A DNA stretch of 64,000 bases from Bolinopsis microptera (Eukaryota; Ctenophora; Tentaculata; Lobata; Bolinopsidae), in the NCBI RefSeq assembly GCF_026151205.1, contig NC_087084.1:4581538-4645537 (forward strand), in the 5' to 3' direction. Made by a program: the position numbers and the translations under genes. The notes beneath the pieces are model-generated. The model did no database searches. It was not told the origin of the DNA and was given only the letters and a program-made list of their open reading frames with translations. Positions 5,605-56,600 of this stretch are shown one piece after another (position 1 is the first letter of the stretch; each line of letters begins with the position of its first letter).

Positions 5605-6519
5605 GTGGGTATTCGTTACTGTAAACTATATCCTGCTGAGGAGGAAACAAGGGTCAACATACAGATCGTAGAACAATACAGTAATAACCTCGCCACTGTA
5701 AAATTAGCCTGCTGTTCACTCGTTTGAGAGTAGGTCGCCTTATTCGAGGACAATCTCTCCTCTATCATAGTAAGGAATATAGACAGGGTTTTGTACAGCC
5801 ACTGTTCGAACGATTGCTCAGTGTTCGCTATAATATAGTGTCAAACAAGTTCATTAGTATAAATCAAGGTGCAGATCGTTTGACCTTTTGAATAACCCAA
5901 ACGCGTTTAGTCTGTACTAAGGAGTTAGTTCCCAGACTACGATTTTAATATAGTCCCACCTACGATCCTTAGCTGCATGGGATTCAGATTTCAGCACCAG
6001 TCTTAATTTCACATATGAGTCCAATTCTGTCAGTGGACAGAACTATTTTGTGTGCTTTAATTGTTAAGTTTTAAAAAATATATGAGCTTATATTTAATAT
6101 TTTTAAGTCGATTCAAAAATATTTGACTCTCCGTAACAGTTTCCAAATCCAATTAACCGGTCTCCCTTCAAGGTTTGGAATAATGGGTCATACTTTTGTT
6201 CACATTTACACACTTTCTCGCATTACTCACAGTCAACCGCTCTGACATGGTTAACCACCTTCCTTGTGTTGTTGGTTAACCATTTGAGCGGGATATAAAC
6301 ACCTCATTTCATTTCAAATACTTATTATGTTGTATTACTATTTTAGATCTTAATTTAATGTCATTTGTATATTATATCCCCACAATCTTTTACTTTTTAT
6401 TGTTTGTGTTTATCATTGACATTATTATGCCATTCATATACGCTGGTTATGTGTAACTATAAATTAAATAAATGTTATTAATGAGAAAAGTAAATAATCC
6501 TTTACAAAGAGATTTCGGT

Positions 6520-6525
6520 TTTATT
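6520..6525 (-). terminator. Candidate poly(A) signal of the unit 1 LU-like gene
   Basis: TTTATT on the plus strand gives AATAAA on the minus strand, about 155 nt past the stop codon. The same hexamer context is retained in units 2-4. Assigned by position only. Confidence 0.4.
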
Positions 6526-6678
6526 AATAAGTAAACTTGATAAGTGCAGCAGCCGGAAGAAAATACATATAAACTTTGAAATTAACCAGAAAAATGTTTC
6601 ATGATCATTAAAAAAATTGAAATTATAGCACTAAAAGATGATGTCTATTCTAAATATTCTGTTCCTTTCTCGGTCTTC

Positions 6679-8705
6679 TTACATCATATGGAAGAAAACT
6701 GCCAAGAGGGGCGCCAAAACAAACGCTAGAGTTGACGCAGAATTGCATTTGTCGGTGGAGCAGTCGAAACAGGTTTTGTCTTTCTTCGCTGCTTCAGAAC
6801 ACGGTCCACAACCCTTGTTAGCCACGCTGTAGGTTTTTGCTACCGCTGCACTCCCGGGTCTGAAATATTGGGCGGTTAATTTTTTCAATTAATTCAATAC
6901 TTTCTAGATTAATACTTGATACTTAGTTACCTAAAAAGTGCCAAACTAGATAATAGCAAGGAAGGGGATTGTAATAATGAAACTTAAAGTTGATAAACTA
7001 CTGTTAATTTAGATAGTAAGTGATAACTGATAAGTAAGTGATAAGCAAACAAGTTGATTATTTGTATTTTGGTGTGAATCCTCATTTTCGTACTTGTTGC
7101 ATGCGATGGCAGTGGCTTTCTCAGCGTGACAAATTGTCGCTGTTTTGGATGCCACCAATGCTTCTTTTACCAAGCTGTAGTCGTAACACTCGAACTTTTT
7201 TGCTTCAGCTGAAGATTGATGGGTGTCAGTAATAATATTAACGGGTGATACTCGTAAAATATTTGTTCCAAAGGACCGTCGACGAGTCCAACTCGGCGCG
7301 CGTCCTGGTAGGTTATAAACCTACAAGTAATGTTATAGCTTAAGCTAATCTGGATTCTGGGGAGCACAGAATAATGGGTAGGCTAGGAGTTTTATGGATT
7401 ATTGCTGGCAAAACGTCAGCTGGAAAGAGGGGACAATGCCCACCACGCAAAGTGGAGGTGGAGTTAGGGCAAACAGTGACACTATCGTCAATCGTTGGCG
7501 GGGTGGAGGCAGATATGTGTGCCTTGCAAGAGGTGGGGATGGATTTTAACATTCGGTCAGCATAAGACACTTAGAGTCCAGGACTTGATAAATTATGATT
7601 ATAATGATTATAATGAACACTGCAAGGAATAAGTTACTGAGCGGCGATCAGCCTGTCATTCCACCGCATCTTTATTCTTCATATGTTTATGAACATTATA
7701 GCCTAGGGTCCCCAGGTAAGGAATAATACGAAAGGGAAGCGGGAATGGGGAACATTATTAGAGAGGCGCCAAATTATGTTCCAATTAGCAAGCAATGATT
7801 GACCTGTTCGTTATTTGTTTTTGTTCATTGACCCTCAACAAACAAATGTCAGATATGCAAAATTTGATATGTATTTTATGTATCAATGATCATATAGTTC
7901 AAAATTTGATTTATTATGTCTTTATTATATGTCTCCATTGCAAATTCAGATTTACCTGGAGCTGCTACTTTTACGTTACATCCGGTTTCTGCTTCGGCAA
8001 CGCATTGGGCACATGTCGCAGTACTGTCATCAGGGCATGGTCCACACCCGTACTCTTGAGCACTCAGACCTCCGTACTGCGACCACACGGGACTGAGGGA
8101 ATGATGGATTTTAAATTGGTGTATTAAAGTTAGTAATAGTATGCTGATAATTTTTTTATAAATAAATTGTTGTTGTTGTTGTTAATAGTATGCTGAATGT
8201 AAAACATGGAAGGAGTTGGGTTCGATATGGGTTAGACACCCGTTGAAAGTTACATCAAAGTAGTCAAAATATTGTAAGTTCATTTGTTAACTAGATGTGA
8301 GATGTAACCATTCATCAATGACTCGAGTGTATCTATTAATTAAAAATATCAAATTATATTAAAAAAAGGAAAAGTCAACTCACGATGTACATGCGACAAC
8401 TCCGTCGACGCAGGCCTCGGCAGTGACGCCATCAGCGCCATTACACTTCATGACTTCCGCCGCTGTGGGTGTTTACTGTTTACGTTGTTTATTCTCAAAT
8501 TTGTATTGTACTATTTATCCTTAAAATCTTCTAATCTTATTTAAACGTAACAACAGTCTGTTCGATTGCATAACAAAGCAGTTGTATTATCATACGGTGG
8601 CACTCGTTAACAGAAAGAAATTAGCCAAGCACACGATGTTCTAAAAAATAAACATTACTTACAGACAGCTGAGAAGACTCCTATCAGGATCACGAAAACC
8701 TTCAT
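6679..8705 (-). CDS. GPI-anchored two-domain LU-like cell-surface protein, copy 1
   Basis: Five exons: 8663-8705, 8384-8462, 7956-8092, 7094-7208 and 6679-6859. All introns are GT-AG and all phases fit, giving 184 residues. Residues 1-15 are a signal peptide (MKVFVILIGVFSAVS). Domain 1 spans Cys21-Asn80 (Cys 21, 32, 39, 57, 60, 68, 71, 79). Domain 2 spans Cys94-Asn164 (Cys 94, 113, 123, 142, 145, 155, 158, 163). Each domain ends in Cys-Asn and contains GCGPC, as in Ly6/uPAR (three-finger) domains. Residues 168-184 are a hydrophobic tail after small residues, the usual GPI-attachment signal. The product should be secreted, lipid-anchored and extracellular; the ligand is unknown. Copy 1 has Val27 where the others have Ala. 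The LU assignment rests on cysteine pattern and topology, not on a search. Confidence 0.82.
7634..7719 (+). mobile_element. Short MITE inside intron 3 of the LU-like gene, unit 1
   Basis: Starts TTACTGAGCGGCGATCAGCC and ends GGTCCCCAGGTAA. It belongs to the small family described at 4164 and lies in the intron between exons 7956-8092 and 7094-7208. Also present in units 2-4. Confidence 0.65.
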
Positions 8706-45484: not shown

Positions 45485-45798
45485 ATATGTAACCTACATA
45501 CAACGTTAAAATTTAGTTGAGTTTTGAACGTTGCTTATAGTTGATAAGGTAACCTTGATCTAACGTAAAATAATAAACGTTTTGCAACGTTAAAAATAAA
45601 ACCTATAACCAACGTTAGATATTTAACGTTTAACAACGTTTTATATGAAACCTACATACAACTTTAAAATATAGTTGAATTTTAAACCCTGCTTATAGTT
45701 AATAAGGTAACCTTGATCTGACGTCAAATAATAAACGTTTTGCAACGTTAAAAATAAAACCTATAACCAACGTTAGATATTTAACGTTTAACAACTAT
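45485..45798. repeat. Two tandem copies of a ~158 bp AACGTT-rich repeat
   Basis: The copies begin near TATATGTAACCTACATACAA and TATATGAAACCTACATACAA. Both contain AATAATAAACGTTTTGCAAC and TAACCAACGTTAGATATTTA, and many AACGTT palindromes. The second copy breaks off at TTTAACAAC, where the palindromic array of the large transposon starts. Confidence 0.85.
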
Positions 45799-46334
45799 AG
45801 CCAAAGCTATAGCTGTCGCCGCGATATCTAGCGCTAGATAGCGCTATCTAGCGCTATCTAGCGTAAACTGTCACAAACCGACATTCTCCGCTAGATAGCG
45901 CTATCTAGCGCTAACAAGCGTTATCTAGCGGAGAATGTCGGTTTGTGACAGTTTACGCTAGATAGCGCTATCTACCGCTAGCTGTCGCCGCGATATCTAG
46001 CGTAAACTGTCACAAACCGACATTCTCCGCTAGATAGCGCCAGATAGCGCTAGATAGCGCTAGATAGCGTTGCGTCAGATGTCGTTGCGACATATAGCGT
46101 TAGATAGCGCTAGATACCGCTAGATGTCGCAAAAAAAAGGGCGGAAATTTTATGAAAATAGCGCTATCTGTCGCCTGGCGTCAGTGCTGCGTGCTTAGCG
46201 TCATCTAGCGTCATCTAGCGTCATCTAGCGTCATCTAGCGTCATATAAGCATATAGCGTCATATAGCGCTAGATAGCGCTAGATAGCGCTAGATAACGCT
46301 AGATAGCGACATTCGAAAGGTGCCGTGCACTTAG
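45799..46334. repeat. Palindromic TAGCGC-TATC array at the left terminus of the large transposon
   Basis: Dense repeats of CTAGATAGCG / CGCTATCTAG and CTAGCGTCAT. They include a hairpin with arms AGCGTAAACTGTCACAAACC and onward (about 45861-45895) and their complement (about 45921-45958), then another partial direct copy of the arm (about 45998-46035). The same TAGCGTCATC words flank the other end of the element (53384-53512), so the array belongs to the transposon termini. Confidence 0.85.
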
Positions 46335-46730
46335 TACTCCAGTAGCAGGGAGGTGTTGAGTGTGCACTTCGCTGCATAGAGTTTTTTGCTACTGAATCGG
46401 GTTAAATAGGCCATTGGTAACTCAAATCACCGAGGGGGGAATTTTGTGTCGCTAGTCCCAACCCTGTGGAGCCACGCCCATATTTCATATAAGACGCGTA
46501 TGTGGAAAATTCGTATCTCAGCTTCTGAAGGGCTTAGAGACTTAAACTTGAGCTTAAAATGACCGCAATATGCATATTTATATTAGCACTATGAAGGTAC
46601 TGAAGCCTTTAGGGACTCAGTTTTTGAGAAAAATGAAAAAAACTAATTTTCACCGAGGCGCGATGGCAATGACAGGCTTCAAGCTACTAAAATTCAAAAA
46701 GTTGAGTGTATAATATTGTGAAAAGTAAAA
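46335..46730. repeat. Left terminal inverted repeat of the large transposon
   Basis: Inverse of 52988-53383. The match runs from TACTCCAGTAGCAGGGAGG through GGGCGTGGCTCC-type sequence to AATATTGTGAAAAGTAAAA, with small differences. Confidence 0.9.
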
Positions 46731-46888
46731 ATGTGCTGGCTTAATCTGACAGAAGAGTTACAATATAAACAAAAGCTTACAAATGATCAAAATAACTGAT
46801 TTGTACTGACAAACAATTCGTCTTATATAAACTTTTACAATTACCAAACAATGTCTACTCATGTAACTAAAAATAAATTAAATCTCTG

Positions 46889-49800
46889 CTAATTCGCATT
46901 ATTGATCGGATTTTTGCACATTTCACGACATTTGCAATAGTGAGAGCATGCATATTGTTTCTGTCTGCATGGGCAGGTGATCCTGACACAGGATTTACAT
47001 TTACATGGTTCAGGTATATCAAGGGGTCTTTGTGGAGGCACAAACCAAGTGGGAGATAAGTTGCTGTCGTATCCATATTCCGTAACATCAAGGATCTGAG
47101 ATGCATCCCCTGTTGCAGCTTCGAGCCACAACCTCGCTTGGAAATATGCCCTTCTAATATGCTGCCTTATTTCATTAGATGAGCATGGAAGATCCACAAA
47201 TCTTACGTTTCTTACTTGCTGCCGCATCCTTAGTCTAAGTTCATCAAAAGTTGCACAGTTCACGAAGGCCTTGCTAGCTACAACTTTCACCAAAAATTGT
47301 TCTGCTTTTTCGAGCATATCCTCGTTAAGCACATCCAATCCAAAATCTTCGATAAAATGACTGAACTGCTTTAAAGCTTTTAACAAAGCCAACTTTGTGC
47401 CAACTTTTGAAACAGTGTCACAACCTGTTAATGCGTGAGCTGCTGGCAGGCTTCTCACTAGACTAGACTCGACCTTGCCCAGTAGCAAGTGTAGAGGAAG
47501 CAATTCTTTTTGGCGTATTGTCTTTACTTTAAAATCACCCTTCCTGAGCAAGTAAAGATTAAGACCATGCCATGCACTTTGGAGATAGTAAAGAAGGTTT
47601 ACGAAAATGTCTGTGTCAGGTGACACAACAGAGACACAGCAACTTTCTGTTGATAAAGCATGAATCTTACTGATCGAAAACATAATACGATCATCAGCCT
47701 CCTCATGAGATGCCCTAAATTCTATCGCTTCAGTTATTAAACCATCTGAAATCACTGTGCATTTATCTGGGTCCGATTTTAAGCCTCCTGCCAAATAAAG
47801 TGGCTTTGCTGATTTGTAGTGAGAAGAACAATATTTTACAAAAAAGTTCTGATAACTGATTTTGTTAGACTGTCTGTCGAAGAAATCATTCAAAGGAGAT
47901 GGCAAGGACTGTTCCTCAGACACCACCTCACAAACCGCACCTAGATTCAAATTGCCGTCTTTGGTTGCTCTAGTTGCTCGTGTTGCTCCTTTGATGGACA
48001 TATCTTTGTAATTTTCTAGAATGAGATGTATCTGCTCACTTTGCTGCCCATATGAAATCACGTTATTCAGAATTTTCTCACAGAACGAGCCGAAGGTTTT
48101 GACATCTGTTAACTTGACTGATGTCCATTTCCTGATAATCGCCATAAAATCAATTACAACTGCTGTCGTTTTTACATGAGGTATCTGGTTTGTGTTGTTA
48201 ATCACAATCGATTCCTTGTCAAGTAATTGCAGCAATTGTTTAGAAAGATCTGATTTGGGGGCTTTCTTTTGCTTCAGGGAATCTTTCTCTAGAAGATAAA
48301 CTGGACGTGAAGTTAAAGGATACATGATCACTTCCTCCAAACCCCATCCCCTGGACGCTGCATACTCGATAAAGTTTACTGCAGATGTATTTAGTTGGTC
48401 GTCTGTGGGCACCTTTACCTTCTTCTGTTTGGCCATTACAGTGGATTCAATGGACATATAAGGAGACTGATATTTAAAGCTTATGGAGGCGTGTAAGCTC
48501 TTGCTTTTGTCAGTTAAACGTTCTTGGACAAATTCGGCATAGTTTGCTTGTCCAAATTCGACACAGTTCAACAGGTACTCTGTGTTTTCAACGACTTCAC
48601 GACTTGTTAGATTGATCAGCTTAGCAGAGCTATCAACTTCAAACGGATTGCCTACTGTTTTAATGTAGTTGACCAGTTTTTCTGCTCGAGACTTGCCCTT
48701 CCCTGCAGATTTAAGATTGAACTCGTGGTGAAGATGGTTCAGCTCTCCTTGGTGTTCACCAATATCTGCTGTTTCTTTTACGAAAGAGACAAACAAATCT
48801 TTGTGGTGCTTTATGATGTTCCACAGAGCCACTGCTTCTTTCTGGCGAGTTGACCCAATAATACCACCTGCTGCCTTAGCCGTGAAGTTGTATGCCTTTT
48901 CCAGGGCCTGGTCAAATCCTATTGCACTTCCTTTGCGCTCTGATAAGTAACAGACAAAGTTCCCATCTTTGAAGTGCTTGTGTAGGGCAGGGAACTTTCT
49001 CTGTACATCCAAACAATCTTGATAAAAGAGCGCTCCATATCTACTGTAATTGGGCTTCCCTGTGCCAAAGAAGATTCCTAAACTCCTTTCCACTGCAGAA
49101 AGAAACAGTTCCCAGTTTCCAGTTCGGACGGATACCTCAAAGTCTCTCGCACACGGGAACATGTCTCTCAGAAAAATCTCCCAGTAGAGAAAGTTTTCGT
49201 TTCCGTGATTAGATCCTTTGAACTCAAGAAACGCTTTGTGTAACCTGTCTAATGAAACCTTGTAACTCTCCCAACAGCTCTCAAAGTCGTTTCCGTCAGA
49301 GTTATCATAGACTTTTGTTAATACTTGTTCAATGTCAAATTCTATGCCATCAAGATCGATTTCCTCCTTGCATAGAATGAATTCATCGCTTTCGAGAAAA
49401 GCTTCATATTGTAGACGTAATATAGACTCAGCAATCATATTAATGCCGTCTTTTGCTTTCATATAATCACCTCCTTTCAGAACACTTGACAGTGCGACAT
49501 CAGCTGCAAAGACTCCGGACTTTTTCAGGGCTTCTCCAATTCCTGAGGGATTTAGCCACTTTCCGATTGCCCCCATGATTATCTTACTCCAATGGAACGG
49601 GCCAAGACCTAAAAATATTGACCCGAACAATTCCGGTTTCAATAGTTGTATGTCTTTAGCCAGACAGTACACCCCTTCATCACACCATAGTGCTCCAGAA
49701 CTTTCGCCTCTCTGATGCAGCACATCTTTGAAGTTCATCATAGAAGTGTAGATGCTGTCCATCAAGGTGGCAGGATACGGCAGTATCGGGATAAATGATC

Positions 49801-52526
49801 TCGCTGTCATCATCCTAACTTCCCTAGATGTTAATTTACTGAGCAAAGCAGTAAAATTGGGAATATCGTTTGCACATTTGAGTCTGGACACAAACCATGC
49901 AAAGAAATCGTCGTTCACTTCAGTCAAAATTGAGTTCTTGTGTATGTGATGAGTGATCGGAGAGAACTCCTCGTTTATTTCTCCTGAATTTTTAGCAAGC
50001 TGCGACGTCATTAGCTGCTGGCAAGGTAATGTATGCTGTAGACTCCGCTTTCTGTCCACAGCGTATTTGGTCGTGTCACGCTTACTCATAGTCCTAGGTT
50101 CGATGTCATCTTCTTTTCCGTTCTGCCATATGACAAGAACGGTGTCGTTGCTGACATCTCCCCCACTATCAGTTCTTTCCTTGTGATTGAAATTATCCAC
50201 AGCTCCTTGGATCGGAATCCCAGGTTTAATAGAATTATTCACTGGGCATCGATCCTTTCCCGCAGTATCGATATCTGTCTGAGCCATTTCAATGTCGTCT
50301 CTTTTCATTGAATCGTAGCCTATTCCAAAGCCGAACCTGTTGATGATGTCAATAAGTTCTCGTGACTTTGTCAGACAGTGAACAGCTTGTGTTATGCCAC
50401 AATGCATCGGTGTCTTAAGACCAGAGATCCAACAAGAAAAGAACTGAAATGATGCATCAAATTTCAGAAACCACGAATCCCCCTGCACAACTTTTCTGCC
50501 CGAGAACAGTTTCGAGATAAACTTCAACCATTGAGGCGGCCTTTCATCTTTGAATCGCTCTAGAGATAGAGCCAAATCACTGGGCAAGCACAGACTGTCC
50601 TCCAATTCAAACTTATATGAACTGATTTCAGCTGACAAGATTTTTGCACATTCCGTAATTGCATCACGATCTCTAAGGTTATGTTCAATAATTCCAGATA
50701 CTGGAACTGATGACTTGAACACTATCTGGGTCACAGATCTGTCTTTAGGGTAAGAAAATGATATATCCTCTCCGAATAATTTGATGAGATTGAATTTTGT
50801 CGCTCGATTATTGAAATTAAGATCTAAATCATTGTTTATACACTCTGTGATATCGGTCAGCTTGTAAGCTTGTGTTTGAAAATCAAGCTTTTCGAATACC
50901 TCCTTCAATCCGTCTTCGTGAATATTCTCTTCACTTTCTCTATGAAAATTGTTCATAAGTTTTTCAACCTGTCTCTCATAAGAACGTAGGTATGAGCTCA
51001 TGCATGCATTGTGATAGTAAATGTCAGCTGCAAAGATGTCACCTACGGATTGGCAGTAGATGTATTGCCTGCGGAGATCATCTTCGTTGAAAGCCATTGC
51101 ACTCAGAAATTTTGAAGCCCGTGAGGTTCCCATTTTCATCTCAGAGACTCTGAATAGCTGTGAGGTTTGATTTGGCCATGATCCTGCTTGGTGCTTTTGA
51201 CAGATGGAGCATTTTGTAGCTTTAGATTTCTTACTCGGTTGGTCAGGTATCTCTCCGCTTGCTGATCTAGACCTGGTGCTTTCACGTTTTCTTTTTGTAG
51301 TTTCACTGGACGTTCCTTGTGCTTCTTGAGATAGATCTTTTAATGTTGATTTGGGTTTAAATTCTTTGAATTTTCTCATATAATTTTTAAAGCACTGTTT
51401 TGGACTTTTCATTTTATTGGACTTAGACTGGTTGTGGAAGCGAAAAGTGTCAGGACATTTAGCTATGTTGTCTAGAACTTCACTATCTCCCATTTTAATG
51501 GCAGCTTCGCACACCATCTTTCGTTTATCGTCATCTCCTGTAGAATTAAGCTTCGTCACGTTTTAAAACAGTAAAGCTCGAAATGACTATGTTAGAAATA
51601 AATCTATCAATTAAAAGTGATTCAAATTGTATTTAACTAAAATGTTACTAGCTTTATTATAGTTTTATTTTACCTTTTAAATCACGCTCTGGATATTTTT
51701 CTTCTTTTTTGCATAAAACACATACTCGGTTCGCATTCGTGTTTTTTGCAAGTTTTGCTCCGTCTTGTAAGAGACTAATTCCTTTGATCTTGGATTCAGG
51801 ACCCGTTTTATTACTCTAAAAATAATGACATTGTAGGATACATTTCTCGTTACAAAATACAAAATCCGAGTCTACTTGAAGCTTCATAACAATTAAATTA
51901 ATGTTAGTATACAAAATATTGTTAACCTGCACAACTGATATACTAATTAATGAAAAATTAATTAATGAAAAATGTTTTAACCTACATTTATTCCTGATGG
52001 TCCTGGAATTTCATCGTCAATAGGAGGTGGTGAAGACACTCTGGGAACAGCATCTTCTGATATACTAATCTCTAGGTCCTAAATTTATTAGACCCATCAT
52101 CACGAAGTAATTTAATACAAAAATATCATATTCACGAAAGAGCTATTCATAGTACAATACTGAACTTTTTAATATTTAAGAAAATTCGAAATAGTTGAGT
52201 CGACCATCAAACTTACACCATCTAAAGCATTGATTGAAACACGATGATATGTCACCCTCCTAGCACTCTGCCTTCTCAAAAGCCACTGTTTGCGTGACCA
52301 CAATATCAACACAAAACAACCTGAAAGTCGATGCTCTTAGCTCTTCGATATTGCTTTATTATACAAACTGCGTAGATAGCAATAACTTATCAATAAATAC
52401 ACTGATGATTATAGGAACTAACTTCAAGCAACAATATAATCGCTAAAGTAACGTCTGAAACTTACCAAGTATCACACAAAGACCCCAAAGAGTAACAACT
52501 GGAATGACAACAAACCAAGCATTCAT
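46889..52526 (-). CDS. Transposon protein: N-terminal membrane segment, zinc-binding-like clusters, FEN/PIN-like motifs, CXC-like C-terminus
   Basis: Five exons: 52466-52526, 52217-52320, 51986-52078, 51674-51815 and 46889-51537. All introns are GT-AG (136-170 bp) and phases agree at every junction, giving about 1682 residues. Residues 1-28 form a hydrophobic signal-anchor followed by basic SRKQWLLRR. Then come a Ser/Pro/acidic linker, C118-x2-C121, a basic nuclear-signal-like stretch near 215-240, and C243-x2-C246 with H309-x2-C312. Near 1413-1507, the order EADDR, VVSPDTD and HALTGCDT with VGTK matches the acidic motifs of FEN/XPG-type PIN nucleases. Residues 1645-1672 are a CXC-like cysteine cluster (CKCKSC...CPC...CKC). 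The main exon alone also starts with an in-frame ATG at 51559, but that codon lies in the intron of the spliced model. It is probably the element's transposase or nuclease; no DDE triad was recognised. Confidence 0.75.
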
Positions 52527-52987
52527 ATTCACGACAAGGTTTCACTGCTGAACCAAGAAGTAGGCGAAATTGGTACACGTTTCAAAATAACTGTCGAGTA
52601 CTGTTGAGAATTCCAGAGGCAGGGTATCCAGTTACGTAGGTTAATCTCAAAGGTTGTGAAAGATAACTCAAAAATTGTAATTTAGTAGTAAGCACGGTAC
52701 AATCAAGAAACAATGTTTCACAGTGGAATATAATACGACAGCAACAAAGTAGGTATTTCTACTTTGTATTACAAAAGCGCTAATTATACCTGTTTCAAAA
52801 GCATCCTGTCTGGAAGTTCCCTGACTGCCGTGTGAATCTTTGGATCTATTTTTTGATCTATTTTTATATTGATATGATTTGTATATACCTATATATTCAT
52901 CGCATAATTTCCATGTACGCCTGAACAAACCTGGCACCATCAAATCTTACATGGAAACCCCAGAACTATTTAAAATATAAATAAATA
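52527..52987 (-). promoter_or_regulatory. 5' region of the transposon gene
   Basis: About 460 bp between the start codon and the right inverted repeat. It should hold the promoter and 5' UTR. No clear core element or second gene is visible; a minus-strand frame at 52668-52943 shows no recognisable features. Confidence 0.35.
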
Positions 52988-53383
52988 TTTAACTTTCACA
53001 ATATTATATACTCAACTTCGTGAATTTAGTAGTACTTAAAGCCTGGCATTGCCATCGCGCCTTGGTCAAAATTAGTTTTTTTCATTTTTCTCAAAAACTA
53101 AGTCCCTAAAGGCTTTGATACCTTCATAGTGCTAATATAAATATGCATATTGCAGTCATTTTAAGCCCAAATATAAGTCTCTAAGCCCTTCAGAGGCTGA
53201 GATACGAATTTTCCACATACGCGTCTTATATGAAATATGGGCGTGGCTCCACAGGGTTGGGACTAGCGACACAAAATTCCCCCCTCGGTGATTTGAGTTA
53301 CCAATGGCCTATTTAACCCGATTCAGTAGCAAAAAACTCTATGCAGCAAAGTGCACACTCAACACCTCCCTGCTACTGGAGTA
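52988..53383. repeat. Right terminal inverted repeat of the large transposon
   Basis: Inverse of 46335-46730. The sequence beyond it (53384-53512) carries TAGCGTCATC repeats followed by their complement GCTAGATGACG, an inverted pair able to fold. Confidence 0.9.
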
Positions 53384-53512
53384 TAGCGACAATGTCGCTA
53401 ATTGGCGTCATCTAGCGTCATCTAGCGTCATCTAGCGTCATCTATCATCATCTGGCGATATTTCACGCTAGATGACGCTAGATGACGCTAGATGACGTCA
53501 TATGTCGAATTT
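53384..53512. repeat. Palindromic TAGCGTCATC array at the right terminus
   Basis: Four to five copies of CTAGCGTCAT, a spacer CTGGCGATATTTCA, then copies of CGCTAGATGA in inverse orientation. Shorter than the left array but built from the same word. 53520-53699 beyond it shows nothing recognisable. Confidence 0.85.
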
Positions 53513-53699
53513 CAACTATCAGTAAAGGTCCGGAATGTGGAGTGAATTAACAAGAATCCCTGAATACAAAGGATAATTTTCTGAAAAAGTAATATCATAG
53601 TGAAATTTACAAACCATTATAAAATCGATTTATGTAATATGTAAATAACATTGTGACAACAGCCAATTTGCTTTATCTTTGCGATCTAAATGGACTCAC

Positions 53700-56600
53700 G
53701 TAAGAAAATTCTCCAGGCAGGCCAGGTTGACCATCATATCCGGGAACTCCAGGCTCTCCTCTGCCTCCACGTCGTCCAGGCATTCCAGCGAGTCCATCCA
53801 GACCAGGCCTTCCCCCAGATCCCAGCAAACCATCGTCACCTGGTCATTGGTCAAGACTCAGTCAGTAAAATTTTACACTCGTAACTTGTTGAAGCTTTGA
53901 AGCTTGTATATTACCGCCCATAAGGTTAGCAAGTGTCAGGTACTAACCATGTATAAATAAATAATTTCAACATCTTGATCTTTTCTCGCTCTGAACGCGT
54001 CAATTTGGAGGTGATAAGCGTACTGTCACTCAGATGACAGATTTAAACGATTTATTACCTATTTTTTATTTATTTTGTTATTTTTTCAATTACCTGGTGC
54101 TCCCCGAGCTCCGTCAGCACCGGGGTCTCCCCTTTCTCCCTTTTGAGCGTAACGTACTTTACCGTCCCGTCCATCTTCTCCTGGACTACCTAAAAGAAGT
54201 TAAAAGGTAACATATAATGCCTTCGACTGCACAACTATTCAAAAAAAATACATTTCACTCCAGTTTAATTGAGTTTATCAATATTTTGAACCTAAAACTC
54301 TCTACCTTTTCGTCCATTTAAGCCAGTAGTGCCATCAAGTCCCCTTTCACCAGGAGTACCATCAGTTCCAGCAGTACCAGGTGCTCCTGGAGCTCCTCTC
54401 AAACCAGGGGTTCCTCCCATTCCTCTCAAACCTGGTCTTCCGGGCATACCGTTCACTCCTACACGGACATTCGATTAGGTCGGTAGTCTAATAATAATCT
54501 AGTCGATAGTCTAATAATAATCTAATAACATAATGACTCATTGTCTTCATAGTTTAATGACTCATTGACTCATTGTCTTTATAGTTTCGTGTAGTTTTTA
54601 CTCATAATTGTCTACAGAGAGTAACCTAACAATTAAAAATATTAATTAACTAATTAACTAATTAACTAACTAAATAACTAACCTGATGTACCCTTCTGAC
54701 CGTTCACTCCGTTAAACCCATCTCTACCAGGTGAACCAGGTGCTCCTCCTAACCCAGGCTCTCCACCCTGGCCTGGGGTACCAGGGACACCAGCTCGTCC
54801 CGGGGAACCGGGCAGTCCTCCGTCCCCCATGAGACCGTCAATACCCTGGCAAAGGGAGGGGGTTGTTATTCTTAGTGACAAGATAGGGGTAAACATTGAT
54901 CAGACTGTTAAAATGATGAATTGAACCCCAAAACCGAGGCAAATTGACGAAGTTTTGCTTTGTTTTAGAAGCTTACGTTAATTCCTGGTGCTCCAGAGGT
55001 ACCTGCCTCTCCTCGCTCTCCGTTTTCTCCATCAGCACCATCTTCTCCTCTCATTCCTGGGAAATTCAATATGGTTAAAACGTATCACTTTTTTAAAAAT
55101 GTTCCTTTTTCTGATGTTAGACCGGATTCAGTTTTTATTTACTGATTGACAACGTTTTCCGGACGGTCCCGTTTCCTTTATCTTATAGTGCTCGATTTGA
55201 AAGTACGGTTCATATGTTCTAAACAGAAAAAATAAAATATTATATAAGTTCAGGACAACATTGACCTGGTAATCCTCGCATGTCCAGACCGGGTGCACCG
55301 TCCAAACCTGGATCTCCCATAGCACCGGGTAAACCGGGGGTTCCTGATAAGAAATATTGTTAGGTTAATTTGAAACTTAAATAATTTAATTTTGAACGAA
55401 TATTTACTGAAATAAACTCTTGAATCAGAAGTAGCGATACTGTAGCAGCACAGTTGTAGTAGTACTGTAGTAGTACTGTAGCAGTACTGTTATAGTACTG
55501 TATTACTGTATTATGTATTAGTAACGAAGTAATATCAGTACTTGACTCTCTTGCCAAAAAAGGCTCTGATAACTTGGACTCCACTCAAGTGCTACTATAC
55601 CAATACCAAAAGTATTATGGAAGGGAGCGCTGCGGCAGCGGAGCATAAGTCATCAAAAAATGAGGGAAAGATGGAGAACGTTGCCCAACACTCACTTCAA
55701 ACGAGTATGGAGACACAAGTTCGCCAGATCAATCCCGAAACTTGGCAAAGAGAGCACAAGAAAAGCGACACAATTCCTTACTGGACATTGTGAACTAAAC
55801 TACCATACTAATAAGTTCAAGCCGACAACGGTCCCTAAAATTTGTCCACACTGTCTCATGGAAGAGGAGATAATGAACCACTTTATTGGTCAGTGCCCAA
55901 AGTGGTCTTACCAACGAGGAGGATACTTTTACTCCTTCTATCTTAGTGTGACAGAAATAGTGGACAAGTTCTCACTACCAAGGATCATCGGCTTCATACA
56001 AGCAACAAAACGATTCACCAAATGCGGAGAAAACAAAGTTTAACTTTTTTCTCCACTTATTAATATTTTACCGGGGTAAGCACAGGGCTCCAATGCTCTA
56101 TTTTACAGTGGTCATGATCTATCTTATAGTGATAATGACCACAGCCCCCTACGAAGAAGAAATAATATCAGTACTGTATCAGAATACTATATTATAATCA
56201 CCTCTCATTCCTATTTCAAAATATATATAATATATATAATCTAATTTTAACCGAATATTAACTGAAATAAACTCATAAAATGGGGTAAGCAGTACAGTTG
56301 TAGGATTGATGTATTAATAAAGTAACAGTAGAATTGTAGAAGAACAACATACAACTATATAATCACCTCTCATTCCTAATTCACCAGGGTTACCCCGGGC
56401 ACCAGGGAGTCCTGGTTGTCCGGATAGCCCATCATTTCCAGGTTCTCCTGGTCGACCAGGTAAAGCGAATCCCTGCAGGTTCAAAAGTTAAACTTTCATT
56501 AAACTAATTTATTTAATCACGGAAGTTAACTGATTAGGTATAAAATCGGATTTATATTATGCACGTTCAGAGACCTGATTCTCATTCAGTTTGTGTTGCT

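Follow-up and report, generated by a model that had tools for sequence, protein, structure and literature searches.

The window, that is, the whole stretch of 64,000 nucleotides of Bolinopsis microptera DNA that was analysed, contains a DNA transposon with long terminal inverted repeats and a single large open frame on its minus strand (Table 1). The element begins with TACTCC at 46335 and ends with GGAGTA at 53383, and a TAG lies directly outside each terminus. The inverted repeats of ~396 bp that the initial annotation had described around the gene are borne out: a 349-nt stretch of the two arms is 96% complementary and the whole arm 94%, far above chance expectation. The extent proposed at that time (45799 to 53512) was too wide, because it included outer arrays of a short palindromic word that belong to a separate repeat. 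Elsewhere in the window, positions 1-44000 contain large repeated blocks about 9-12 kb apart, most of them with a 29/59-bp array CTTTTAGGAAAGCTCCGCCGTACTGTCCC, and positions 53690-54470 resemble, by eye, a collagen-type gene on the minus strand.

Table 1. Features of the transposon and its surroundings in the window, and further gene-bearing loci of the same family.
Feature	Position	Strand	Evidence
Whole transposon, 7,049 bp	46335..53383	- (gene strand)	shared ends, 3-bp duplication, empty site
Target-site duplication TAG, left	46332..46334	+	
Target-site duplication TAG, right	53384..53386	+	
Left terminal inverted repeat, ~398 bp	46335..46732	+	
Right terminal inverted repeat, ~399 bp	52985..53383	-	
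Main open frame, 1,556 codons + stop; start and 5' exon(s) provisional	46889..51559	-	unbroken in L002-L004
Possible C2HC zinc finger (C117, C120, H183, C186)	51002..51211	-	conserved Cys in alignment
Central DUF6589-like region (residues 383-961), putative DDE core	48676..50413	-	DUF6589 matches, D455/D627/E887, H656
FEN/XRN-type PIN nuclease region (modelled), residues 1137 to about 1385	47405..48151	-	model, fold matches, conservation
C-terminal CXC-like cysteine cluster	46892..47005	-	TCR/CXC Pfam, LIN54 chain
Not transposon: left piece of separate high-copy CTAGCG-array repeat	45796..46331	+	
Not transposon: right piece of same CTAGCG-array repeat	53387..53520	+	
Window-family loci besides the window	C2:16072181, C9:7438798, C6:10588505		
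Window-family loci in two pieces	C2:15205121-15209754, C7:19621201-19625834, C8:4815965-4821701		

The arrays on either side of the element have a history of their own. When the best 40 of 202 candidates from a genome search were scored, at least 39 further places matched the left array (537 bases), with 85-97% identity over 343-537 bases or slightly more, gaps included. Joining the window flanks by a single TAG reproduces an empty site seen in 9/9 loaded copies of the array repeat (L040-L048); the joined flanks align to these copies over all or all but one of 673 bases at 93-97% identity, and the junction is uninterrupted in the five copies displayed base by base. Since all nine copies run through the insertion point, the transposon landed in a pre-existing repeat. 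CTAGCG/CGCTAG words number 21 and 6 in the 500 bp adjacent to the two ends of the window element, compared with 0 or 1 at the other 28 of 30 transposon ends examined. A reading of 45799-53512 as one element with palindromic terminal arrays is favoured by the similar words on both sides, but it is refuted by the array-repeat copies that continue through the insertion point, where no transposon is present, and by the 28 ends that are nearly or wholly free of such words; its probability is practically nil. A preference for palindromic targets was likewise rejected, as only the window's two ends of the 30 sit in an array. At its right end the array repeat reads ...CAACTATCAGTAAAGGTCC and then passes into differing DNA.

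The assembly searched comprises 264,652,675 bases in 232 contigs; the contigs C1-C9 and C11-C13, at 15-26 Mb each, suggest about 13 chromosomes. The protein search returned at least 34 matches (best 30 of 179 candidates scored) and the left-repeat search at least 67 (best 40 of 609 candidates scored, 30 ends loaded), so that the counts given here are lower bounds. This search for further copies, proposed in the initial annotation, recovered gene-bearing and gene-less copies alike. The window family has at least seven gene-bearing loci, the other six being 91-96% identical in the protein search. The frame is unbroken in four of the seven (the window copy and L002-L004), and the remaining three match in two pieces, with a stop in both pieces of the C8 locus. 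Repeats lie on both sides of six of these loci; at the seventh, on C8, the left repeat was partly seen in L008. Alignment of the copies, also proposed earlier, fixed their ends and target duplications: TACTCC or TACTCT begins 28 of the 30 loaded ends (the two exceptions are TATTCC and GTATAT), and a comparison of lengths 1-12 gave a 3-bp target duplication at nine of ten end pairs (TAG, TTC, CCT, GCA, TAC, TAA, TAC, TGT and TAC). No duplication was found at the tenth pair (C2:15203245), whose right end is degraded.

Other facing repeats enclose 2.3-4.3 kb without a protein match among the matches listed. Widespread occurrence of the repeats without the gene had been named beforehand as an observation that would speak against a transposon coding for this protein, and literally it is true; the four gene-less facing pairs tested, however, all have the same ends as the transposon and 3-bp duplications, as expected of gene-less derivatives. 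In the gene-less pair at C3:8011507-8014186 (L024, L026; 2,680 bp), open stretches do not exceed 83 codons, and tblastn with the transposon protein gave no match. The genome also holds internal pieces of the terminal repeat (about positions 121-321).

Three more distant families were present in the genome among the matches listed. The second family has 54-59% identity to the window protein and the distant copies 24-28%; the distant copies examined fall into two groups that are 55% identical (L049, L053, L055, L056 and L057 versus L050). A distant-family copy on C1 carries 416-bp repeats that are 96% identical, and placing its end one base inside the aligned arm gives a TCA duplication. The copy at C2:22479804 has a partial right arm only, and in the 54-59% family and the L050 family no more than a partial arm of the terminal repeats was seen. 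Downstream of the distant copy in L050, at 6220-7933, open frames resemble by eye a retroelement polyprotein. Pattern searches matched nine stretches in a viral contig collection and 25 in a genome contig collection, with no relative among either set.

The gene had initially been described as single and spliced. One large open frame is indeed present, and splicing is plausible only, given the GTG start of the listed frame and a possible acceptor AG at 51538, read by eye. The motifs EADDR, SPDTD and TGCDT...VGTK and the cysteine cluster noted at the outset are all found in this frame. Values of dN/dS (Nei-Gojobori method, own script) for the window copy are 0.131 against L002, 0.144 against L003 and 0.146 against L004; other pairs gave 0.131 (L002 vs L003) and 0.157 (L049 vs L053), and the value of 0.232 for L003 vs L004 comes from a very small number of changes (dS 0.008). 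Several open-frame copies are thus under purifying selection. L003 and L004 are nearly identical but have unlike flanks and different duplications (CCT and GCA), and therefore represent separate recent insertions.

The acidic residues of the C-terminal nuclease region are D1137, E1286, E1287, D1289, D1315, D1317 and D1381, which we take to correspond to residues of FEN1. Six of them are conserved in 10/10 rows of the alignment and D1137 in 9/10 (V in L054), the rows coming from four families and not being independent. Structure prediction for this part of the protein gave a model of middling confidence (pLDDT 53.8, below 50 around D1381), and its fold is that of a FEN/XRN-type nuclease in 50/50 listed VIA rows; sequence identity across the 50 structural alignments shown is 8-16%. 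Foldseek with the same model gave 0/346 matches at E<=1e-3, with unrelated folds from rank 8 on, and the C-terminal sequence profile retrieved no FEN/XPG chain from among the PDB chains. On the model, the region combines the fold and the conserved acidic residues of FEN/XPG-type PIN nucleases, and the early suggestion of a FEN/PIN-type nuclease in a DNA transposon appears to have been right. These two traits are shared with FEN1/EXO1/XRN1-type 5' nucleases, whereas the embedding of the nuclease in a 1,556-residue transposon protein is not, and the region is predicted to be active as a nuclease.

Both ends of the protein carry candidate metal- or DNA-binding elements. C117, C120 and C186 occur in all seven rows of alignment A1 that reach them and H183 was read from the alignment; together, these residues may bind zinc. 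At the other end, TCR/CXC Pfam matches were obtained in 7/10 rows of alignment A2 at E<=10 (best E 0.0012), the two TCR scores of the window protein (10.9 and 12.3 bits) lie under the curated cut-off of 23.5 for CXC (Tesmin/TSO1), and the best PDB match of the C-terminal profile is the CXC chain of LIN54 (E 0.12). Weak as they are, the Pfam matches support the CXC-like tail recognised in the initial annotation.

The central region is the candidate for a second catalytic core. Pfam matches of the whole window protein are all weak (DUF6589, E 0.11; integrase SAM-like, E 0.13; TCR/CXC, E 0.59), and none of these three listed models is named as a transposase or is a helicase, HMMER filters dropping weak matches. 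Among the frames of relatives, DUF6589 was matched in 3/6 at 3.3e-4 to 6.2e-4, below cut-off (L050, L051 and the first L052 piece), and L049 and L053 as whole proteins gave no DUF6589 match. With the central region alone, DUF6589 was matched in 9/9 rows of alignment A3 (best E 5.5e-5). The DUF6589 and TCR (CXC) matches fall at consistent positions, but their bits, where displayed, are under the Pfam curated cut-offs. D455 is conserved in all seven rows that reach it and D627, H656 and E887 in all eight. The fold model of this region is poor (pLDDT 40.6), its profile matched no solved structure in the PDB, and phmmer with the whole protein against the PDB returned only four capsid VP1 chains (E 0.43-0.54), taken as chance. 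No RNase H-like DDE triad had been recognised by eye, and profiles likewise gave no clear DDE match, only the weak ones to DUF6589. A literature search on DUF6589, alone or with transposition, found nothing.

Taken together, we consider this element most likely (probability roughly 0.78) to be an autonomous cut-and-paste DNA transposon of a new Academ family, in the AcademX lineage, that combines a DDE core with a nuclease. In this view the ~398-bp inverted repeats would be bound by the zinc-finger and CXC-like ends of the single protein. Strand cleavage and joining with a 3-bp stagger would fall to the DUF6589-like core, putatively of RNase H/DDE type with D455, D627 and E887 as candidate catalytic residues, and the FEN/XPG-type domain might trim or cut branched intermediates. 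The DNA binding, the DDE chemistry, the nuclease activity and this division of labour are inferred.

Several superfamilies can be set aside by their ends and targets. hAT and KDZ/Zisupton elements produce 8-bp target-site duplications, Kolobok targets TTAA, PIF/Harbinger has a 3-bp TWA target, and CMC/CACTA ends are CACTA or CACTG. The duplications found here are 3 bp long in 9/10 pairs, the nine vary from TAG to TGT, eight of them are not TWA, and the window family ends in TACTCC. The nuclease of AcademX is of XPG type. In the passages of the literature that deal with Academ, the superfamily is listed among those with DDD/E transposases (PMC9587614) and given a DDE/D profile (PMC10294476), and AcademX and AcademH are distinguished by duplications of 3 or 4 bp and of 9 or 10 bp, seemingly related to a nuclease and a helicase, respectively (PMC10045372); AcademH helicases occur in fungi (PMC10799480). 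The window element resembles AcademX, as described there, in being a DNA transposon with 3-bp duplications and an encoded nuclease, the last on the strength of the modelled fold and conserved acids, and its long inverted repeats fit the same lineage. It would share its superfamily with AcademH, by literature, but differs from it in its 3-bp duplications and in that the three Pfam models listed include no helicase, and at 7.0 kb it is longer than the bivalve Academ elements, for which a mean of 5,565 bp (5.6 kb) is stated (PMC10294476). It is therefore probably a new AcademX-like family of an already known superfamily, and the view of it as an undescribed kind of transposon is probably wrong. 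Academ membership is inferred here from the published descriptions of the lineages. A literature search found nothing on Academ with a flap endonuclease, nor on Academ in ctenophores.

Two other explanations have to be weighed against an AcademX-like family. An undescribed superfamily that lacks a DDE core and relies for its movement solely on the FEN/PIN nuclease, with host ligation finishing the reaction, would agree with the lack of a clear DDE profile in the Pfam and PDB profile searches and with the near-complete retention of the seven FEN-type acids across four families. Uniform 3-bp duplications are, however, the mark of staggered DDE strand transfer, the conserved D455/D627/E887 and H656 together with the weak DUF6589 matches suggest a second catalytic core, and strand joining is not, to our knowledge, an activity of the hydrolytic FEN enzymes; we regard this mode of movement as very improbable. 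Somewhat less remote, though still unlikely, is the capture of a module with FEN/PIN and CXC parts by a DDE transposon from a different superfamily that makes short duplications, such as CMC or a Zator-like one. Several superfamilies, and not Academ alone, have duplications of about 3 bp, and Kolobok lineages are described, in the part of the source concerned with them, as having varied accessory nucleases (PMC9587614). Against such a capture stand the TACTCC ends, which are not CACTA, the three listed Pfam models, none of them named as a transposase, and the prior publication of a nuclease with 3-4 bp duplications as the AcademX combination (PMC10045372, in its account of that lineage).

A bolder and rather doubtful reading is a two-nuclease transposase, in which the DDE-like core would cut and join the 3' ends and the fused FEN/XPG domain would cut the 5' strand or resolve flaps, as a eukaryotic counterpart of TnsA/TnsB, the choice of nuclease or helicase setting the duplication length in Academ. 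As this element illustrates, arrays that flank a transposon can belong to a separate repeat into which it inserted. With four full-length copies that have unbroken frames, two of them nearly identical at different sites, the family is a practical candidate for probing the role of a flap-endonuclease domain in a transposon protein.
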